Assembly: GCA_021647985.1 (NCBI GenBank) | Contig: JAKITQ010000020.1 | Coordinates: forward strand, 1 to 55,561 | Reading direction: 5' to 3' | Source of the DNA: Flavobacteriaceae bacterium | GTDB taxonomy: Bacteria; Bacteroidota; Bacteroidia; Flavobacteriales; Flavobacteriaceae | Length of the DNA: 55,561 nucleotides | Shown here: one piece after another, positions 4,845 to 19,127 of the stretch | Position numbering within the stretch: position 1 is the first letter of the stretch | Layout of the letters: every line of letters starts with the position of its first letter | Made by a program: the position numbers and the translations under genes | The notes under the pieces: model-generated | The model's input: only the letters and a program-made list of their open reading frames with translations | Databases searched by the model: none | Told to the model about the DNA's origin: nothing

Positions 4845-5042
4845 TTATTCGTTACTGGTCTTTTTAAATTTTTGTAATTGGGATAACCAGAATAAAAACA
4901 ATCCAAAAACGATAACAAAAAGAATTGCATTAAAAAAATTTGAAAGCCACCAGCCATCTATAGATCGTAAAGCATCATAGGGTATAAATAAAACATTGGT
5001 GCAAAAATCGGCAATAGCTCTAAAAAAATTAGTTGGTATCAT
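4845..5042 (-). CDS. Small single-pass membrane protein (DUF6341-like)
   Basis: 65 residues: an amphipathic N-terminal part, the motif SIDGWWLSNFFN, one strong transmembrane segment (residues 36-55, AILFVIVFGLFLFWL) and a short basic tail. I recall small proteins of this kind next to a DUF6427-type membrane protein in flavobacteria, which is the arrangement here (divergent neighbour at 5167). No function is known to me. The TGG-rich block and spacing to trmB argue that it is a real gene. Confidence 0.65.
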   Translation of the reverse strand: MIPTNFFRAIADFCTNVLFIPYDALRSIDGWWLSNFFNAILFVIVFGLFLFWLSQLQKFKKTSNE

Positions 5043-7995: not shown

Positions 7996-9075
7996 TTAAC
8001 CATTGATAATTTTTTCTTGATGGGAAATAGACTCTTGATGAATGGCTTTAAACATTTTTTCAATAAAGATTTTTGATAGTCCATGTTCTTCTCCTTTTTC
8101 AATCATGCTGTTTAAAATTTCTTGCCAGCGAGTATTTTGTAATACAGCGACATTACTTTCTTTTTTTGCTTTACCTATACTTGCAACTATTTGCATTCGT
8201 TCAGATAATGTTTCTAACAATTGATCATCTTTTGCATTGATCTCTTTACGTAAAGCATCTAATTTTGAAAGAGAATCTTCTTTTTCAAACCTAGGTTTTC
8301 TAACTTTTAATTCATCCATTATTTCAACCAAACGATTTGGTTTGATTTGTTGTGCAGCATCACTCCATGCCTCATCTGGATTACAATGCGTCTCAATCAT
8401 TAAGCCTTCAAATTTTAAATCGAGTGCAGTTTGTGAAATTTCAAAAATACCTTCACGGTTGCCACAAATATGAGATGGGTCGTTTATTATTGGTAAAGTA
8501 GGATACTTCGCTTTTAAATCAATAGGAATTTGCCAACTAGGAATATTTCTATATTTTGATTTTCTAAAAGAAGAAAAACCTCTATGAATTGCTCCTAAAT
8601 TAGTAACGCCCATTTTATGAAAACGTTCAATGGCACCAATCCAAAGCGCTAAGTCAGGGTTAATAGGATTTTTCACCAAAACAATTTTATCCGTACCCTG
8701 AATCGCATCAGCAATTTCTTGAACAGCAAAAGGGTTTACTGTTGTACGTGCACCAATCCATAAAATATCAATATCAAATTCAATGGCTAATTTTGCATGA
8801 TTGGCATTCGCAATTTCAATTGCGGTTAGCATACCGGTTTCTTCTTTTACTTTTTGTAACCAAGGCAATGCTTTAACGCCATTCCCTTCAAAAGTACCGG
8901 GTCTTGTTCTTGGTTTCCAAACACCAGCTCTAAAAATAGTGGCATCTGTATTTTTTAGCTCATGAGCTACTTCTAAAACTTGTTTTTCACTTTCTGCACT
9001 ACATGGGCCTGCAATTACCAATGGGTGGTTTAACTGCATGTTCTCTAGCCATGTTTTAAAATTTTTATTTTCCAT
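7996..9075 (-). CDS. Bifunctional DAHP synthase / chorismate mutase
   Basis: 359 residues with two domains. Residues 1 to about 260 are a type I-beta (KDSA-like) 3-deoxy-7-phosphoheptulonate synthase: VIAGPCSAESEKQVLEVA, FRAGVWKPRTRPGTFEG, LVKNPINPDLALWIGAIER and DPSHICGNRE hold the PEP and metal ligands. Residues about 265-355 are an AroQ-type chorismate mutase (LDALRKEINAKDDQLLETLSERM). It therefore catalyses the first shikimate step and the first Phe/Tyr-specific step. It is the last gene of the operon; its start is 6 bases past the tyrA stop. In related fusions the mutase domain gives feedback control by prephenate; that is family knowledge. Confidence 0.95.
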   Translation of the reverse strand: MENKNFKTWLENMQLNHPLVIAGPCSAESEKQVLEVAHELKNTDATIFRAGVWKPRTRPGTFEGNGVKALPWLQKVKEETGMLTAIEIANANHAKLAIEFDIDILWIGARTTVNPFAVQEIADAIQGTDKIVLVKNPINPDLALWIGAIERFHKMGVTNLGAIHRGFSSFRKSKYRNIPSWQIPIDLKAKYPTLPIINDPSHICGNREGIFEISQTALDLKFEGLMIETHCNPDEAWSDAAQQIKPNRLVEIMDELKVRKPRFEKEDSLSKLDALRKEINAKDDQLLETLSERMQIVASIGKAKKESNVAVLQNTRWQEILNSMIEKGEEHGLSKIFIEKMFKAIHQESISHQEKIING

Positions 9076-9080
9076 AATAT

Positions 9081-9935
9081 TTAATTCTTAATACCAGCCA
9101 ATACACTTTTTATTTTATTTGTATTTTCCATAATTTTATATACTTCTTCTGCCGATTCTGTTTTTAATATTTCTTTAAATTGATTTAGGTTTTTAATATA
9201 TTCTTCTATTGATTTTAATAAATTTTCTTTGTTTTGTAAAAATATAGGCGTCCATGTTTCAGGATTACTTTTGGCTAATCTTACAGTAGAAGCAAAGCCA
9301 CTTCCCGCCATATTAAAGATGCTTTTTTCATCTTTTTCTATCTCTAAAACTGTTTTACCCAACATAAAAGAACTGATATGAGAAAGGTGAGATACATAAG
9401 CAATATGTTTATCATGCTGTTTTGCCGAATCCATAAAAACATTTTTCATTTTAAGGGTTTCAAACAAAGTAATTACTCTTTTTATCATCTCTTTGCTACT
9501 TAAATCTTGCTCACAAATAATATTGACCTTATTGGTAAACAAATCATAAATAGCCGATTCTGGCCCCGAGAACTCAGTTCCAGCAATAGGATGTAATGCT
9601 ACAAAATTTTTCCTTTTAGGATGCTTCTTTACCATGTCACAAACTGCCAGTTTGGTAGACCCAACATCAAATACCAAGGTATCATCGCCAATTAAATCTA
9701 ATACTTTTGCTGTTAAATTTGGTATGATATTTACGGGTACAGCAATGATTACTATATCTACTTCACATACAATATTTATATCTGCCTTTTTATAAATTAT
9801 TCCAAGTTCTAAAGCCTTTTGTAAATGATCTTGATTTTTATCAACGCCATAAATCGTTGCCCAGGTGCTCTTTTTTAACTCCAAAGCCAATGATCCTCCA
9901 ATAAGACCCAAACCAATAACTGCGATTTTTTTCAT
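9081..9935 (-). CDS. tyrA: Prephenate dehydrogenase
   Basis: 284 residues. Oxidatively decarboxylates prephenate to 4-hydroxyphenylpyruvate with NAD+ for tyrosine synthesis. The nucleotide-binding loop GLGLIGGSLA is at the N terminus. VFDVGSTK, LHPIAGTEFSGPESA and the HIAYVSHLSHISSF helix follow. There is no ACT domain, so feedback is likely to come through operon control rather than this protein. It sits 30 bases after the aminotransferase gene and 6 bases before the DAHP synthase fusion. Confidence 0.93.
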   Translation of the reverse strand: MKKIAVIGLGLIGGSLALELKKSTWATIYGVDKNQDHLQKALELGIIYKKADINIVCEVDIVIIAVPVNIIPNLTAKVLDLIGDDTLVFDVGSTKLAVCDMVKKHPKRKNFVALHPIAGTEFSGPESAIYDLFTNKVNIICEQDLSSKEMIKRVITLFETLKMKNVFMDSAKQHDKHIAYVSHLSHISSFMLGKTVLEIEKDEKSIFNMAGSGFASTVRLAKSNPETWTPIFLQNKENLLKSIEEYIKNLNQFKEILKTESAEEVYKIMENTNKIKSVLAGIKN

Positions 9936-9965: not shown

Positions 9966-11108
9966 TTAATTGGTTTTTGTAATTCTTGTTAATACTTCTT
10001 TTATTTTGTCTTCCTGTACACATAGAGAAAATCGAATATACCCTTCACCATTTGAACCGAAAACAGTGCCAGGTGTTATAAATACGTTGTATTTATACAA
10101 TAATTCATCTGTAACCTCATTTGATTTTTTTTCTTTTGGAATTTTAGCCCAAACAAACATTCCTGTACTCAATTTATCATAAGCGCAGTTTATATGGTCA
10201 CAAATTTGCCAGACAATGGCTCTTCTCTTTGTGTAAATTGCGTTGACTTTATCAAACCATGTATCTGATAAATTCAAAGCAGCAATTGCTCCTTTTTGAA
10301 TACCATAATACATACCAGAATCCATATTGGTCTTAACTTTCAAAATATTATTTAAATATTTTGAACTACCAACCACCATACCAATTCTCCAACCGGCCAA
10401 ATTAAAAGATTTACTCAATGAATTTAATTCTATGGCTACATCTCTTGCACCTTTAACCGATAAAATACTTTTTGGGTTATTATTTAAAATAAAACTATAA
10501 GGGTTATCATTAACAATTAAAATTTCATGCTTTTTTGCGAAGTCAATTAATTTTTCAAACAGGTCTTCATCAGCATTACTTCCAGTTGGCATATGTGGAT
10601 AATTAACCCACATGATTTTTACTTTAGATAAATTTAGTTTTTCTAAAGATTCAAAATCTGGTTGCCAATTATTTTCTTCGATTAAATCATAAAAAACAGG
10701 TTTAGCCTGTACCAAATTTGTAACCGAAGTGTAGGTTGGATACCCTGGATTTGGAATTAATACTTCATCACCGGCATTTAAATAAGCCATAGAAATATGT
10801 AATATGCCTTCTTTCGACCCCATTAATGGTAAAATTTCATTGTCGCTTGAAAGGTTAACCTTGTAATGCTTCTTATAAAAGTCACCCATTGATTTTCTTA
10901 GCTCCGGTATGCCTTGGTAATTTTGATATCCGTGAACATCAGCATTTTTTAAGGCCTCTAATACTTCAACAGGAGGGTTTAAATCCGGGCTGCCAATTCC
11001 TAAATTAATAATAGGTTTTCCAGCTGCAATCAATGCGCTTACTTCTCTCAATTTTATTGAGAAATAATACTCCTTAACGGTTTCTAGTCTTTGCGCTATT
11101 GCTATCAT
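9966..11108 (-). CDS. PLP-dependent class I/II aminotransferase (aromatic operon)
   Basis: 380 residues. The PLP lysine is in NSLSKSFNLAGWRIGM (near residue 230). Other marks are LGIGSPDLNPP, VNYPHMPTGSNAD and VNDNPYSF. By position between pheA and tyrA it most likely transaminates phenylpyruvate and hydroxyphenylpyruvate to Phe and Tyr; this is inferred from context, as the fold also covers aspartate and LL-diaminopimelate aminotransferases. Its ATG overlaps the pheA TGA (ATGA at 11108-11105), indicating translational coupling. Confidence 0.88.
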   Translation of the reverse strand: MIAIAQRLETVKEYYFSIKLREVSALIAAGKPIINLGIGSPDLNPPVEVLEALKNADVHGYQNYQGIPELRKSMGDFYKKHYKVNLSSDNEILPLMGSKEGILHISMAYLNAGDEVLIPNPGYPTYTSVTNLVQAKPVFYDLIEENNWQPDFESLEKLNLSKVKIMWVNYPHMPTGSNADEDLFEKLIDFAKKHEILIVNDNPYSFILNNNPKSILSVKGARDVAIELNSLSKSFNLAGWRIGMVVGSSKYLNNILKVKTNMDSGMYYGIQKGAIAALNLSDTWFDKVNAIYTKRRAIVWQICDHINCAYDKLSTGMFVWAKIPKEKKSNEVTDELLYKYNVFITPGTVFGSNGEGYIRFSLCVQEDKIKEVLTRITKTN

Positions 11109-11941
11109 TTCTTTAAAGCATTTTCATGGTACTCCCCCAATATTTTTAAATGATTTACTTTTTTGCCGAGTAAGTGCAAAGCATTTTCATACAATTTGAA
11201 ATCGTCAATAATTAAATCGATAAAAAAGGCATAACGCCAAGGTTTATCAATAATTGGCATCGACTGAATTTTTGTAAGATTTATATCGTGTTTTGCAAAA
11301 ATATCTAAAACTTCAGCGAGGCTACCTTTATTGTGTTTTGTTATAAATTTTATAGAAGCTTTATTCAATGTTCCATGCATCTTACCTTTAAGATCGTTTG
11401 CATTTTTTTCTAAAATAAAAAAACGTGTTGAATTGTGTTTTATCGTTTGAATATCATCTCTAATGATTTTAAGGTTGTATATATTTGCCGCCTCTTTACT
11501 TGCTATTGCGGCAATGCCTCTTAATTTTTTTTCATGAATTCTTTTAGCAACTTCAGCAGTATCTTTTTCTTCTACCAATTTGATATTAGGATGATTCCTA
11601 AAAAACTTTCTACATTGTAAAATAGCCATTGGGTGTGACCAAACTTCTTTGATATCTTTTAGTTTTTGATTTTCTAAAGCCATTAAATGGTGATGGATGT
11701 TTAAAAATACTTCTCCCTTAATATTTAGATCATACTCATCAATTAAAGCATAATTTGGTAAAATAGCCCCAGCAATAGAATTTTCTATGGCCATCACAGC
11801 GCTATCAACTTCGTTATTTTTTAACAAGACAGGAATCTCAGTAAAAGTCATGCACGCAACCAATTTAATGGAATCACCAAAGAATTGTTTAGCCACTATA
11901 TCGTGAAAAGATCCTTTTATACCTTGTATTGCTATTTTCAT
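11105..11941 (-). CDS. pheA: Prephenate dehydratase
   Basis: 278 residues. Converts prephenate to phenylpyruvate. The catalytic region has the conserved IENSIAGAI, HPMAILQC and the NSTRFFIL motif with catalytic Thr-Arg. Residues about 190-275 form an ACT domain (KGSLAEVLDIFAKHDINLTKIQS, PWRYAFFIDL). The Phe-binding ESRP motif of other bacteria reads QSMP here. There is no fused chorismate mutase; that activity is supplied by the last operon gene. It is the first structural gene after the attenuator, with its ATG about 14 bases downstream of the terminator T-run. Confidence 0.93.
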   Translation of the reverse strand: MKIAIQGIKGSFHDIVAKQFFGDSIKLVACMTFTEIPVLLKNNEVDSAVMAIENSIAGAILPNYALIDEYDLNIKGEVFLNIHHHLMALENQKLKDIKEVWSHPMAILQCRKFFRNHPNIKLVEEKDTAEVAKRIHEKKLRGIAAIASKEAANIYNLKIIRDDIQTIKHNSTRFFILEKNANDLKGKMHGTLNKASIKFITKHNKGSLAEVLDIFAKHDINLTKIQSMPIIDKPWRYAFFIDLIIDDFKLYENALHLLGKKVNHLKILGEYHENALKK

Positions 11942-11954
11942 TTCAATTATTGAT

Positions 11955-11986
11955 AAAAAAAAAGCCTCGAAAATTTCGAGACTTTT
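11955..11986 (-). terminator. Attenuator hairpin before pheA
   Basis: Minus-strand arms AAAAGTCTCGAA (11986 to 11975) and TTCGAGGCTTTT (11971 to 11960) form 12 pairs including one G-T wobble, followed by a T run to 11955. A terminator placed between promoter and first gene only makes sense as a regulated stop. The 5' arm contains AGTCTC (11983 to 11978), which is exactly complementary to GAGACT (12024 to 12019) near the end of the upstream leader ORF. That supplies the competing antiterminator helix. Confidence 0.85.
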
Positions 11987-12006
11987 AATGTTATATTATA
12001 TTTTAA

Positions 12007-12087
12007 TTATACATATATAGTCTCACTTTTAACTTTATAAAAAAAGTAAAAGAAGAAATAGTTAAATATGTACAATGTGTTTTTCAT
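12007..12087 (-). CDS. Phe/Tyr-rich leader peptide of the pheA operon
   Basis: A 26-codon ORF from ATG at 12087 to TAA at 12007. Residues 6-17 read YIFNYFFFYFFY; in total 6 Phe and 5 Tyr among 26 residues. It lies just downstream of a consensus promoter and just upstream of a terminator hairpin, and the operon it precedes makes both Phe and Tyr. The layout is that of ribosome-mediated attenuation: a ribosome starved of charged tRNA-Phe or tRNA-Tyr stalls on the run and leaves GAGACT (12024-12019) free to block the terminator. A translated ribosome reaching the stop would cover it. The ORF is inferred; translation is not shown. Confidence 0.85.
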   Translation of the reverse strand: MKNTLYIFNYFFFYFFYKVKSETIYV

Positions 12088-12103
12088 ATTCTGAATATCA
12101 CGG

Positions 12104-12134
12104 CAAATCTATAAATATATTTTGCAATTGCAAA
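12104..12134 (-). promoter_or_regulatory. Promoter of the pheA attenuator and operon
   Basis: Minus-strand TTTG (12134 to 12131), 19 bases, then TAGATTTG (12111 to 12104), a full match to the Bacteroidota TTTG-N19-TAnnTTTG promoter. The expected start point near 12097 gives a roughly 10-base 5' UTR before the leader peptide. Confidence 0.75.
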
Positions 12135-12141
12135 ATATATT
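12114..12141. promoter_or_regulatory. 28-bp perfect palindrome across the pheA promoter -33 box
   Basis: Fourteen bases (AATATATTTTGCAA) are followed directly by their exact reverse complement, centred at 12127/12128. The palindrome covers the -33 element and most of the spacer of the pheA promoter. Its core TTTTGCAATTGCAAAA is dyad-symmetric and could be an operator for a dimeric regulator. In AT-rich DNA part of the length is cheap, so the function is a guess. Confidence 0.45.
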
Positions 12142-12268
12142 ACTATTTTATTCAAAACTATATTAATTTTTACCATTAAAATTAAATAATTCTAAATTTT
12201 TTTTCTCGAACAAATAACATAACCCTACCAAACTTGCACAACACAATCTACATCAAGATTATTCCCTA

Positions 12269-12434
12269 ATATACCCAAACCATTTAGGTTTTCGGGAGTT
12301 TTGGCGAAAGTTATTTTTTTCTTTAAAAAGGCAAAAAATTCAACCATAACCTTTGTTACGGTTTTATTTTTTAACGCATTTAAAGGAAGAAAGAACGAGT
12401 CAAAAAACCGAAAGGCTAAATGGTTTGGGTATAT
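12269..12434. repeat. Fold-back repeat, copy 1 (166 bp, 19-bp terminal inverted repeats)
   Basis: The ends ATATACCCAAACCATTTAG (12269-12287) and its perfect reverse complement (12416-12434) bracket a body very similar to the copy at 15636-15795. A second hairpin sits in the middle (AACCATAA near 12341 with TTACGGTT). It carries no transposase. It lies between the pheA leader and the stop of the T9SS cargo gene. Reading frames within it are not constrained: differences from copy 2 fall about equally on all three codon positions. It is a MITE-like or structured intergenic repeat of unknown class. Confidence 0.8.
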
Positions 12435-14250: not shown

Positions 14251-14796
14251 TTATGATTTTTTTCTTTCTAAATGAATTTGTAAGCCTATTCCAAAAATTA
14301 AGCCATTACTAATTAAGTTGTTTGCATCGGGAGCTTTCCCATAATAATACTTTAAACTTGCCTCTAGAGCAACACTGCTATTCAAAAAGTATATTAATCC
14401 AGGTTTTATATTATACCCATAACTTAAGGTGTTTTCATTATTCTTAATAAAACGGATTGAATTTGTAAAAGATACTTCTGTAAAGAAATTTATTTTTTTA
14501 TCCGGATTTAAAAAATAATATCGTAAAAAAGGACTTAGACTAAGAAAATAGCGATTGTTATTTCCTCTAAAACTAAAAGTTGTATAGCTACCAACAGCAA
14601 GTTTATCTATTACAAAATAACCAATGTTGGGACTAACAACTACATTCCAAGTAGGGTCTGTGTTTGAATTATCTCTTTTAGCGTCGTAATAACTAAATGA
14701 CCCATTTCCTCCTAACATCCAATAACCTTTTGTTATTTGGGCTTTTATATTTATACTTAAAAAAAGTATGGATATCACTAAAATTGTTTTTTTCAT
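14251..14796 (-). CDS. Outer-membrane beta-barrel protein, tandem paralogue B
   Basis: 181 residues with a signal peptide (MKKTILVISILFLSINIKAQ) and an eight-strand-like barrel. Blocks include GYWMLGGNGSFSYYD, NIGYFVIDKLAVGSYT, SPFLRYYF, NIKPGLIYFLNSSVALEASL and the end LIFGIGLQIHLERKKS. The neighbour upstream (14802-15353) is a close paralogue and the two are 5 bases apart in the same direction, a recent tandem duplication. No enzymatic motif is seen; function unknown. Confidence 0.75.
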   Translation of the reverse strand: MKKTILVISILFLSINIKAQITKGYWMLGGNGSFSYYDAKRDNSNTDPTWNVVVSPNIGYFVIDKLAVGSYTTFSFRGNNNRYFLSLSPFLRYYFLNPDKKINFFTEVSFTNSIRFIKNNENTLSYGYNIKPGLIYFLNSSVALEASLKYYYGKAPDANNLISNGLIFGIGLQIHLERKKS

Positions 14797-14801
14797 TTTT
14801 T

Positions 14802-15353
14802 CTATTTTTTTGATGATTTTTTTCTTTCAAAATGAATTTGTAAGCCTATACCAAAAATTAAACCATTGTTAATCATGTTTACATCAGGTGCTCTATTATA
14901 ATGATATCTTAAACTTGCCTCTAAAGCAACACTACTATTTAAAAAGTATATTAACCCCGGTTTTATATTATACCCGTAATTTGAGGGATTTTCATTATTC
15001 TTAATAAAATTAATTGAATATTCAAAAGACACTTCAGTAAAGAAATTTATTTTTTTATCCGGTTTTAAAAAATAATACCTTAAAAAAGGCCCAAGGCTAA
15101 GAATAAAGCCATTGCTATACTTTCCAAAGCTAGTAGATGTATAGCTACCAACAGCAAGTTTATCTATTACAAAATAACCAATATTTGGATTGACAACTAT
15201 ATTCCAAGAAGGGTCTGGGTTTGAAATATCGCTCTTCCTATCTGTATAACTAAATGATCCATTTCCTCCAAGCATCCAATTTCCCTTTGTTATTTGGGCT
15301 TTTACATTAATACTAAAAAGAAGTATTGTTACTACTAAAATTAGTTTTTTCAT
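14802..15353 (-). CDS. Outer-membrane beta-barrel protein, tandem paralogue A
   Basis: 183 residues, colinear with the protein at 14251-14796 over its whole length: same signal peptide type (MKKLILVVTILLFSINVKAQ), same ITKGNWMLGGNGSFSY opening, same NIGYFVIDKLAVGSYT and NIKPGLIYFLNSSVALEASL blocks. It ends FERKKSSKK. The most divergent part lies around residues 65-80, which should be an external loop. It is presumably the first gene of a two-gene transcript. Function unknown. Confidence 0.75.
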   Translation of the reverse strand: MKKLILVVTILLFSINVKAQITKGNWMLGGNGSFSYTDRKSDISNPDPSWNIVVNPNIGYFVIDKLAVGSYTSTSFGKYSNGFILSLGPFLRYYFLKPDKKINFFTEVSFEYSINFIKNNENPSNYGYNIKPGLIYFLNSSVALEASLRYHYNRAPDVNMINNGLIFGIGLQIHFERKKSSKK

Positions 15354-18308: not shown

Positions 18309-19127
18309 ATGGACTTAAATAAAATTTCTAGGTTAAAATATTTAGATAGTAATAATTTCTTTTTACTTGCTGGCCCTTGCGCAATTGAAAGTGAAGATAT
18401 GGCGATGCAAATTGCCGAAAAATGTGTTGAGATTACAAATAAGTTAGAAATTCCATTTATTTTTAAAGGCAGTTTTAAGAAAGCCAATAGGTCTAGAATT
18501 GACAGTTTTACTGGAATTGGAGATAAGAAAGCATTAAAAATCCTTGAAAAAGTAGGAAAAACATTTGATATTCCAACCGTCACAGATATTCATGAAATAT
18601 CTGACGCTTTGAAAGCAGCAGAACATGTTGATATTTTACAAATACCTGCTTTTTTAGTACGTCAAACCGATTTAGTAGTTGCCGCGGCTAAAACTGGTAA
18701 AGTTGTAAACCTCAAAAAGGGGCAATTTATGAGCCCTGAAGCAATGCAACACGCAGTAAAAAAAGTCCACGATAGTGGTAACCAGCAAGCCATGATTACA
18801 GATAGAGGAACTATGTTTGGTTATCAAGATATGGTAGTTGATTTTAGGGGAATTCCGGTTATGCAGAACTATGCACCTACGGTTTTAGATATTACGCATT
18901 CTTTACAGCAACCAAATCAGGCTAGTGGCGTTACTGGAGGTAAACCAGAATTGATTGAAACGATTGCAAAAGCAGGAATTGCTGTAGGTGTTGATGGTCT
19001 ATTTTTAGAAACTCATTTTGATCCCAGTACTGCCAAATCTGATGGTGCCAATATGTTAAAATTAGAATATTTAGAAGATTTGTTGAGTAAATTAGTACGA
19101 ATCAGGCAAACGATAAATCAATTCTAA
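18309..19127 (+). CDS. kdsA: 3-deoxy-8-phosphooctulonate synthase
   Basis: 272 residues. Condenses PEP with arabinose-5-phosphate to make Kdo-8-phosphate for lipid A-core synthesis. Marks are LLAGPCAIESEDMAMQIAE, FIFKGSFKKANRSR, LQIPAFLVRQTDL, VVNLKKGQFMSPEAM, DRGTMFGYQDMVVDFR and ETHFDPSTAKSDGAN. I chose ATG 18309 because the only upstream start (TTG 18291) is inside the promoter box. The end overlaps the convergent methyltransferase gene by 4 bases. Confidence 0.95.
   Translation: MDLNKISRLKYLDSNNFFLLAGPCAIESEDMAMQIAEKCVEITNKLEIPFIFKGSFKKANRSRIDSFTGIGDKKALKILEKVGKTFDIPTVTDIHEISDALKAAEHVDILQIPAFLVRQTDLVVAAAKTGKVVNLKKGQFMSPEAMQHAVKKVHDSGNQQAMITDRGTMFGYQDMVVDFRGIPVMQNYAPTVLDITHSLQQPNQASGVTGGKPELIETIAKAGIAVGVDGLFLETHFDPSTAKSDGANMLKLEYLEDLLSKLVRIRQTINQF

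Follow-up and report, generated by a model that had tools for sequence, protein, structure and literature searches.

The pheL attenuator of Escherichia coli pheA consists of a leader ORF with a run of Phe codons, followed by competing antiterminator and terminator structures, with the prephenate dehydratase gene downstream. One leader peptide can also read several amino acids, as in the ilvGMEDA and thr leaders of enteric bacteria, which do so for a single operon or pathway. A comparison of attenuators published by Vitreschak and co-workers in 2004 reportedly lists some Bacteroidetes as well. For Flavobacterium psychrophilum, signs that strongly suggest control by leader peptides have been reported before amino-acid operons, together with structured 5' elements without Rfam hits, including elements before pheA and hisG, which are found also in other genera of Flavobacteriaceae (PMC9723704). 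In Bacteroides thetaiotaomicron, small ORFs reminiscent of attenuation have been described (PMC7366714). A sequence-only reading of the locus described below had called attenuation established in Proteobacteria, which holds, but not for that group alone, as the F. psychrophilum work is in print (PMC9723704).

We analyzed a window of 55,561 nucleotides, the whole of the stretch of contig JAKITQ010000020.1 from a Flavobacteriaceae bacterium (GCA_021647985.1), and compared the DNA upstream of its pheA gene with that of relatives. We conclude that the element before pheA is very likely a ribosome-mediated transcription attenuator responding jointly to the supply of charged tRNA-Phe and tRNA-Tyr (Table 1). 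The principle of a pheA attenuator is classical. The layout is that of E. coli pheL, with the difference that Phe and Tyr codons are interleaved here, the operon also makes Tyr and holds a DAHP synthase gene, and the promoter is of the Bacteroidota type. The proposed joint reading of different amino acids is shared with the ilvGMEDA and thr leaders, whose codons are branched-chain or Thr/Ile rather than aromatic. A closely similar described element is the one before pheA in F. psychrophilum, which concerns the same gene in the same bacterial family and comes from a study proposing attenuation for amino-acid operons; its leader codons and antiterminator are not stated in the available portions of that paper (PMC9723704). 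Therefore this kind of attenuator and, in part, the pheA element itself are already in print, and what we add is the putative joint reading of Phe and Tyr, the geometry, the covariation and a possible Trp input, none of which appears in the available text of the two papers (PMC9723704, PMC7366714). Among the open-licence papers listed in our searches, we recognized none describing a Phe/Tyr leader before pheA in Bacteroidota apart from PMC9723704.

Table 1. Predicted attenuator parts and the operon genes behind them, in window coordinates.
Feature	Position	Strand	Basis or remarks
Bacteroidota-type promoter (predicted)	12104..12133	-	TTG 12133-12131, 19-base spacer, TAGATTTG 12111-12104
Leader peptide ORF, 26 codons, MKNTLYIFNYFFFYFFYKVKSETIYV	12007..12087	-	6 Phe and 5 Tyr
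Control codon run YIFNYFFFYFFY, residues 6-17; also the 5' partner of the leader hairpin (region 1)	12037..12072	-	
Region 2, TGAGACT (GAGACT 12024-12019), antiterminator 5' strand	12019..12025	-	11 bases past the run's last aromatic codon
Region 3, AAAAGTCTCGAA, terminator 5' arm and antiterminator 3' strand	11975..11986	-	
Region 4, terminator 3' arm (11971-11960) and T run (11963-11955)	11955..11971	-	
Gene 1, presumed pheA (prephenate dehydratase)	11105..11941	-	ORF and homologues
Gene 2, presumed aminotransferase	9966..11108	-	ORF; order conserved
Gene 3, presumed tyrA (prephenate dehydrogenase)	9081..9935	-	ORF; order conserved
Gene 4, DAHP synthase with presumed C-terminal chorismate mutase-like part	7996..9075	-	PF00793 match 8314-9024

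Most of these parts had been proposed in the sequence-only reading, and a direct check of the minus-strand letters bore out its coordinates: the 26-codon ORF with its six Phe and five Tyr codons at 12087-12007, the run YIFNYFFFYFFY at residues 6-17, GAGACT at 12024-12019 as an alternative pairing site, and the 12-bp terminator with a nine-base T run before pheA, which we place at 11986-11955. The terminator hairpin (11986-11960) has 12 pairs, one of them G-T, and a 3-base loop, and its nine T lie at 11963-11955. Bacteroidota ribosomes rarely use Shine-Dalgarno pairing, and Bacteroidota promoters follow the pattern TTG-N19-TAnnTTTG. The consensus promoter named in the sequence-only reading matches this pattern perfectly (with TAGATTTG as its downstream element), though a generic sigma-70 scan gave no promoter at the pheA leader, and a promoter of that type was dropped. 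Allowing spacers of 17 to 21 bases, we found TTG-N17..21-TAnnTTTG at most 75 bases before the leader in 66 of 142 leaders, compared to 20 of 7100 single-base shuffles; the strict pattern was unmatched in the remaining 76. In the window, a perfect 28-bp palindrome (AATATATTTTGCAATTGCAAAATATATT, 12114-12141) overlaps the -33 element of the pheA promoter. We rejected it as an operator belonging to the conserved device, since in none of the 141 other leaders examined do the preceding 80 bases contain a palindrome of more than 14 bp; it is either a lineage-specific operator or due to chance.

Phe_leader is the name of an Rfam leader family. Searching positions 11800-12400 of the window against Rfam gave two low-scoring sRNA matches only, far below the cut-offs, and 20 relatives' loci gave no match at gathering level; the T-box model matched neither the window segment nor these 20 loci. 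With no qualifying match, an identity with a known RNA family (the Rfam leader families or T-box) was rejected.

The combination of a short, aromatic-rich ORF with a terminator behind it is rare in the window: when both strands were scanned in 490 overlapping tiles of 450 bases, only two tiles had it, and both contain this site. The leader-terminator region folds at z = -4.88 relative to shuffles. By itself the leader forms a hairpin involving the codon run (-16.0 kcal/mol), and the antiterminator between regions 2 and 3, before the 3' arm of the terminator is made, has -9.7 kcal/mol. In the complete window RNA the minimum-energy fold is the terminator (-14.8 kcal/mol) even when region 2 is free, so we rejected thermodynamic switching and kept a kinetic switch, whose outcome would have to be fixed while the RNA is still being made, as the classical model has it. 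The pairing of GAGACT with AGTCTC suggested in the sequence-only reading is present, with modest support from the single sequence, as 9 of 200 shuffles were equally good; its strength comes from the relatives.

To find these, we used PheA as a query, which yielded 80 loci from 113 confirmed relatives in named genomes. Loci were obtained from 19 of 22 genomes in a same-genus sample, and 53 of 60 genomes in a family sample had a PheA match, with 51 upstream regions read. We added samples of the order, class and phylum (20 same-phylum regions read); from the additional same-family matches in this wider sample, only G074 and G155 were read. Duplicates were removed by the last 150 bases before pheA, and one of 173 regions was dropped because it was shorter than 150 bases, leaving 172 distinct upstream regions. 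A region was scored positive if it had a terminator and a short ORF in which 6 or more of 10 residues are aromatic.

By this definition, leader and terminator are present in 145 of the 172 regions, compared to 4 of 3440 dinucleotide shuffles; with a stricter threshold of 7 in 10, the numbers are 144 of 172 and 1 of 3440. The short ORF with codons for the pathway's products that is expected of a ribosome-mediated attenuator is thus found in the window (12087-12007, presumably translated) and in these 145 regions, and the terminator expected between leader and first structural gene is found at 11986-11955 and behind 145 of 147 leaders, the two others (L020 and L166) having a leader but no detected terminator. 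The sequence-only reading had proposed a search of relatives for Phe/Tyr codon runs plus terminator, and its expectation was borne out in 49 of the 51 family genomes read and in 13 of 16 from other families of the class, together with compensatory changes in the antiterminator (described below). Neither of two regions from the same order has the pair, and 3 of 20 sampled from the same phylum do. Among the 80 loci in named genomes, 77 have both parts; the exceptions are L049, L067 and L035, whose upstream DNA amounts to just 44 bases.

The pair might also be no more than the ordinary terminator of an upstream transcript beside a chance hydrophobic ORF, or a functional small protein, and the peptide is indeed hydrophobic and the terminator would also stop transcription arriving from upstream. 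We consider this extremely unlikely, given how few of the 3440 shuffles produce an ORF with a terminator, and because what stays constant across the leaders is the aromatic run, while their length, start and C-terminus vary.

The composition of the run argues for an attenuator that reads both amino acids. Every one of the 145 leaders has at least two Phe and at least two Tyr codons. Aromatic residues fill the run's last five positions in 94-100% of leaders and the next five in none, although defining the end of the run as aromatic necessarily sets the final column to 100% and accounts for part of the depletion in the columns just behind it. Phe makes up a larger share of leader residues than Tyr (0.237 versus 0.155) and occupies the last-but-one position of the run in 113 of 145 leaders, so that Phe alone might be sensed, with Tyr codons serving as filler because UAY triplets fit a hairpin strand rich in pyrimidines. 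The run does pair over at least 6 bp with the stretch up to region 2 in 133 of 141 minimum-energy folds; this hairpin is only slightly more stable than in single-base shuffles (mean z -0.91). Sensing of Phe alone is nevertheless improbable in our view: Leu or Ser codons would give a pyrimidine-rich strand equally well, yet they are uncommon there, few residues other than Phe and Tyr occur in the last five positions, and no leader falls below two Tyr codons.

We found a good helix between regions 2 and 3 in 130 of 141 loci and a poor core helix in 11 (4 of the 145 leaders, without a recognizable core motif, were left out of the core counts). The search for region 2 did not require any particular distance from the codon run, yet in 100 of the 130 good cases 9-11 bases separate the last aromatic codon from the start of region 2. 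Judged by the size of a ribosome footprint, this is the spacing expected of a ribosome-mediated attenuator, as it would leave region 2 just outside a ribosome stalled at the last aromatic codon. The position of the stop codon floats, from 29 bases after the start of region 2 to 7 bases before it; at the few loci where it lies 24-29 bases past this start, a terminating ribosome would cover region 2 only partly.

The region 3 core differs between clades, and in the 141 loci it is GTCTCG (80), GTCCCG (31), GTCCTG (13), ATCCCG (6), GCCTCG (5), GTTCCG (4) or one of two singletons. Taking the best match as region 2 biases the comparison toward pairing, and we therefore assessed covariation by permutation. 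In 127 distinct loci the mean score of each region 3 with its own region 2 is 0.814, whereas permuted partners give 0.659 (sd 0.012) and the best of 2000 permutations reached 0.702, in a test that ignores relatedness among the loci. The fourth core pair is T-A in 83 loci, C-G in 56, T-G in 2 and C-A in none. The six ATCCCG loci score alike with their own and with swapped cores (0.74 and 0.73). A PheA tree of 108 loci requires at least 10 changes of the core and at least 5 of its fourth position; in four independent pairs on well-supported branches, the partner changes the same way in 2.8 on average, shows no difference in 1.2 and changes the opposite way in none, a number of pairs too small to reach 0.05. 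A mutually exclusive antiterminator with compensatory change is seen both in the good helices and in the permutation test, and the small set of tree pairs agrees in direction. Spacing and covariation fit RNA switching, and the covariation contradicts a chance ORF or a small protein with an unrelated terminator.

On the sequence features tested, the pheA device is a ribosome-mediated attenuator, and from its parts, which are conserved, regularly spaced and covarying, we infer stalling, readthrough and the dependence of both on Phe and Tyr. Judging from the promoter, RNA polymerase would begin some 10 bases ahead of the leader AUG. With ample Phe and Tyr, a ribosome reaching the stop codon would cover region 2 (TGAGACT), leaving region 3 to pair with region 4 as a terminator, and transcription would stop before pheA. 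A shortage of either amino acid would stall the ribosome among the interleaved Phe and Tyr codons with its front edge just short of region 2, and the free region 2 could pair with region 3 before region 4 exists. Polymerase would then continue past this antiterminator into the Phe/Tyr synthesis genes and the DAHP synthase gene. Without translation, the codon run would pair with the stretch up to region 2, favoring termination. Antitermination would be kinetic, relying on the antiterminator of -9.7 kcal/mol forming first. In short, the leader very probably switches on the genes for Phe and Tyr synthesis when either is scarce, and the proposal in the sequence-only reading of pheL/trpL-type logic with a leader for two amino acids gains support from the comparison of relatives.

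Both parts were missing in 27 of the 172 regions, and we fetched wider stretches for six of these and for G158, a genome not represented among the 172 regions. At L049 the leader lies 1041 bases upstream of pheA. Several hundred extra bases with short repeats ('acctgttaggt ... cctgataggtct'), lying between about -915 and pheA, set the leader and terminator apart from the gene. At L067, pheA stands alone and has no leader, and L223 (the same operon as L132) has the four genes in order with no detectable leader. At five other loci (L222, L225, L226, L227 and L228), the 8-9.5 kb read contains pheA but neither a match to any of the remaining three operon genes nor an aromatic leader on the pheA strand. 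Among the other families of the class, the three regions scored negative are L152, L166, with its leader but no detected terminator, and L151, in whose genome (G097) the leader precedes the DAHP synthase gene. There, on the minus strand of the wider stretch L224 (span 8161-6933), the aromatic-rich leader MLITAAIYFTFFYFYFRSQSRIGAVYCLAKN (8161-8066) and a terminator (8048-8019) stand before the DAHP synthase match (from 7988) and not before pheA, which follows the DAHP synthase gene with other DNA between them; G097 is the sole genome read with DAHP synthase first. Two loci have a leader with no DAHP synthase match: L061, in the final 0.5 kb of its stretch, and L048, which has pheA, the aminotransferase gene and tyrA but no such match in almost 4 kb after position 4886. 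The leader at L048 therefore accompanies the Phe/Tyr genes even without an adjoining DAHP synthase gene.

We take the first gene behind the leader to be pheA, as the sequence-only reading also named it, the second an aminotransferase gene, the third tyrA (prephenate dehydrogenase), and the C-terminal part of the fourth chorismate mutase-like. This order is complete in 66 of the 80 loci from named genomes, and judging by locus lengths most of the remaining 14 are cut by contig or stretch ends. In the source genome (86.6% complete), PF00793 matches the operon's DAHP synthase and one other gene (18351-19109 of the window), which is presumably KDO-8-phosphate synthase, and PF01474, the other DAHP synthase class, has no match, so the operon's DAHP synthase is the only one found. 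Elsewhere in the window (14251-15353) are two adjoining, very similar genes of 181 and 183 residues, which we take to resemble outer-membrane proteins.

Two other operons of the source genome provide positive controls for our reading of the pheA leader. Upstream of trpE (L193) there is a leader whose control codons are for Trp only (MKTKKLHTWWWSLQKINL), followed by a terminator. It resembles the pheA leader in having a control-codon ORF and a terminator before the first gene, and differs from it in the codons, which are Phe and Tyr at pheA. All 10 same-genus trpE loci examined (L189-L198) have a Trp-Trp-Trp leader with a terminator (GGCTTGTCTTCACGACAAGC in L193). By eye, a stretch near the stop codon of the trpE leader (TTGTGAAG) seems complementary to the terminator loop, an antiterminator layout unlike that of pheA. 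Upstream of hisG (L221) there is an ORF with HHHHFH and a strong terminator.

The sequence-only reading had proposed sensing of Phe and Tyr at pheA. Both are indeed present throughout, but 74 of the 145 leaders also contain Trp codons, and sensing may be wider. The operon usually includes a DAHP synthase, which supplies the Trp branch too, and for this reason Trp codons in the upstream part of the run could be a third input, so that many relatives would sense all three aromatic amino acids. The Trp residues are concentrated up to the end of the run (76 of 2228 residues, compared to 1 of 1100 after it) and take positions held elsewhere by Phe or Tyr (at -10, 47 Phe, 22 Tyr and 23 Trp; at -5, 63 Phe, 39 Tyr and 19 Trp), and the sole DAHP synthase found in the 86.6% complete source genome sits in this operon. 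Against this, the leader in the window has no Trp, and Trp presence is labile, with at least 17 changes over 108 leaders, 55 of which have it. The four positions that precede the last aromatic residue hold Trp in only 1, 1, 0 and 0 of 145 leaders. A ribosome halted at a Trp codon 10 codons ahead of the run end may also be too far back for region 2 to be freed. Moreover, trpE has its own Trp leader in the source genome, and L048 keeps the pheA leader with no DAHP synthase match nearby. We therefore regard a Trp input as possible but doubtful, and retain joint reading of Phe and Tyr as the better account of the pheA leader.

This element provides a Bacteroidota example of leader-peptide attenuation whose codon run, spacing, antiterminator and terminator are each traceable over 145 loci. 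A single leader is proposed to read two, perhaps three, aromatic amino acids and so to adjust the one DAHP synthase that we found in the genome. Tentatively, a single leader peptide might let Bacteroidota steer the whole aromatic pathway by reading Phe, Tyr and, in roughly half of the leaders, Trp; the leader would stay at the head of the operon when gene order changes, and the 9-11-base spacing would imply close coupling of the leading ribosome and polymerase. Together, the pheA, Trp and His leaders suggest that several amino-acid operons in these bacteria are controlled by attenuation, which would require transcription and translation to be closely coupled.
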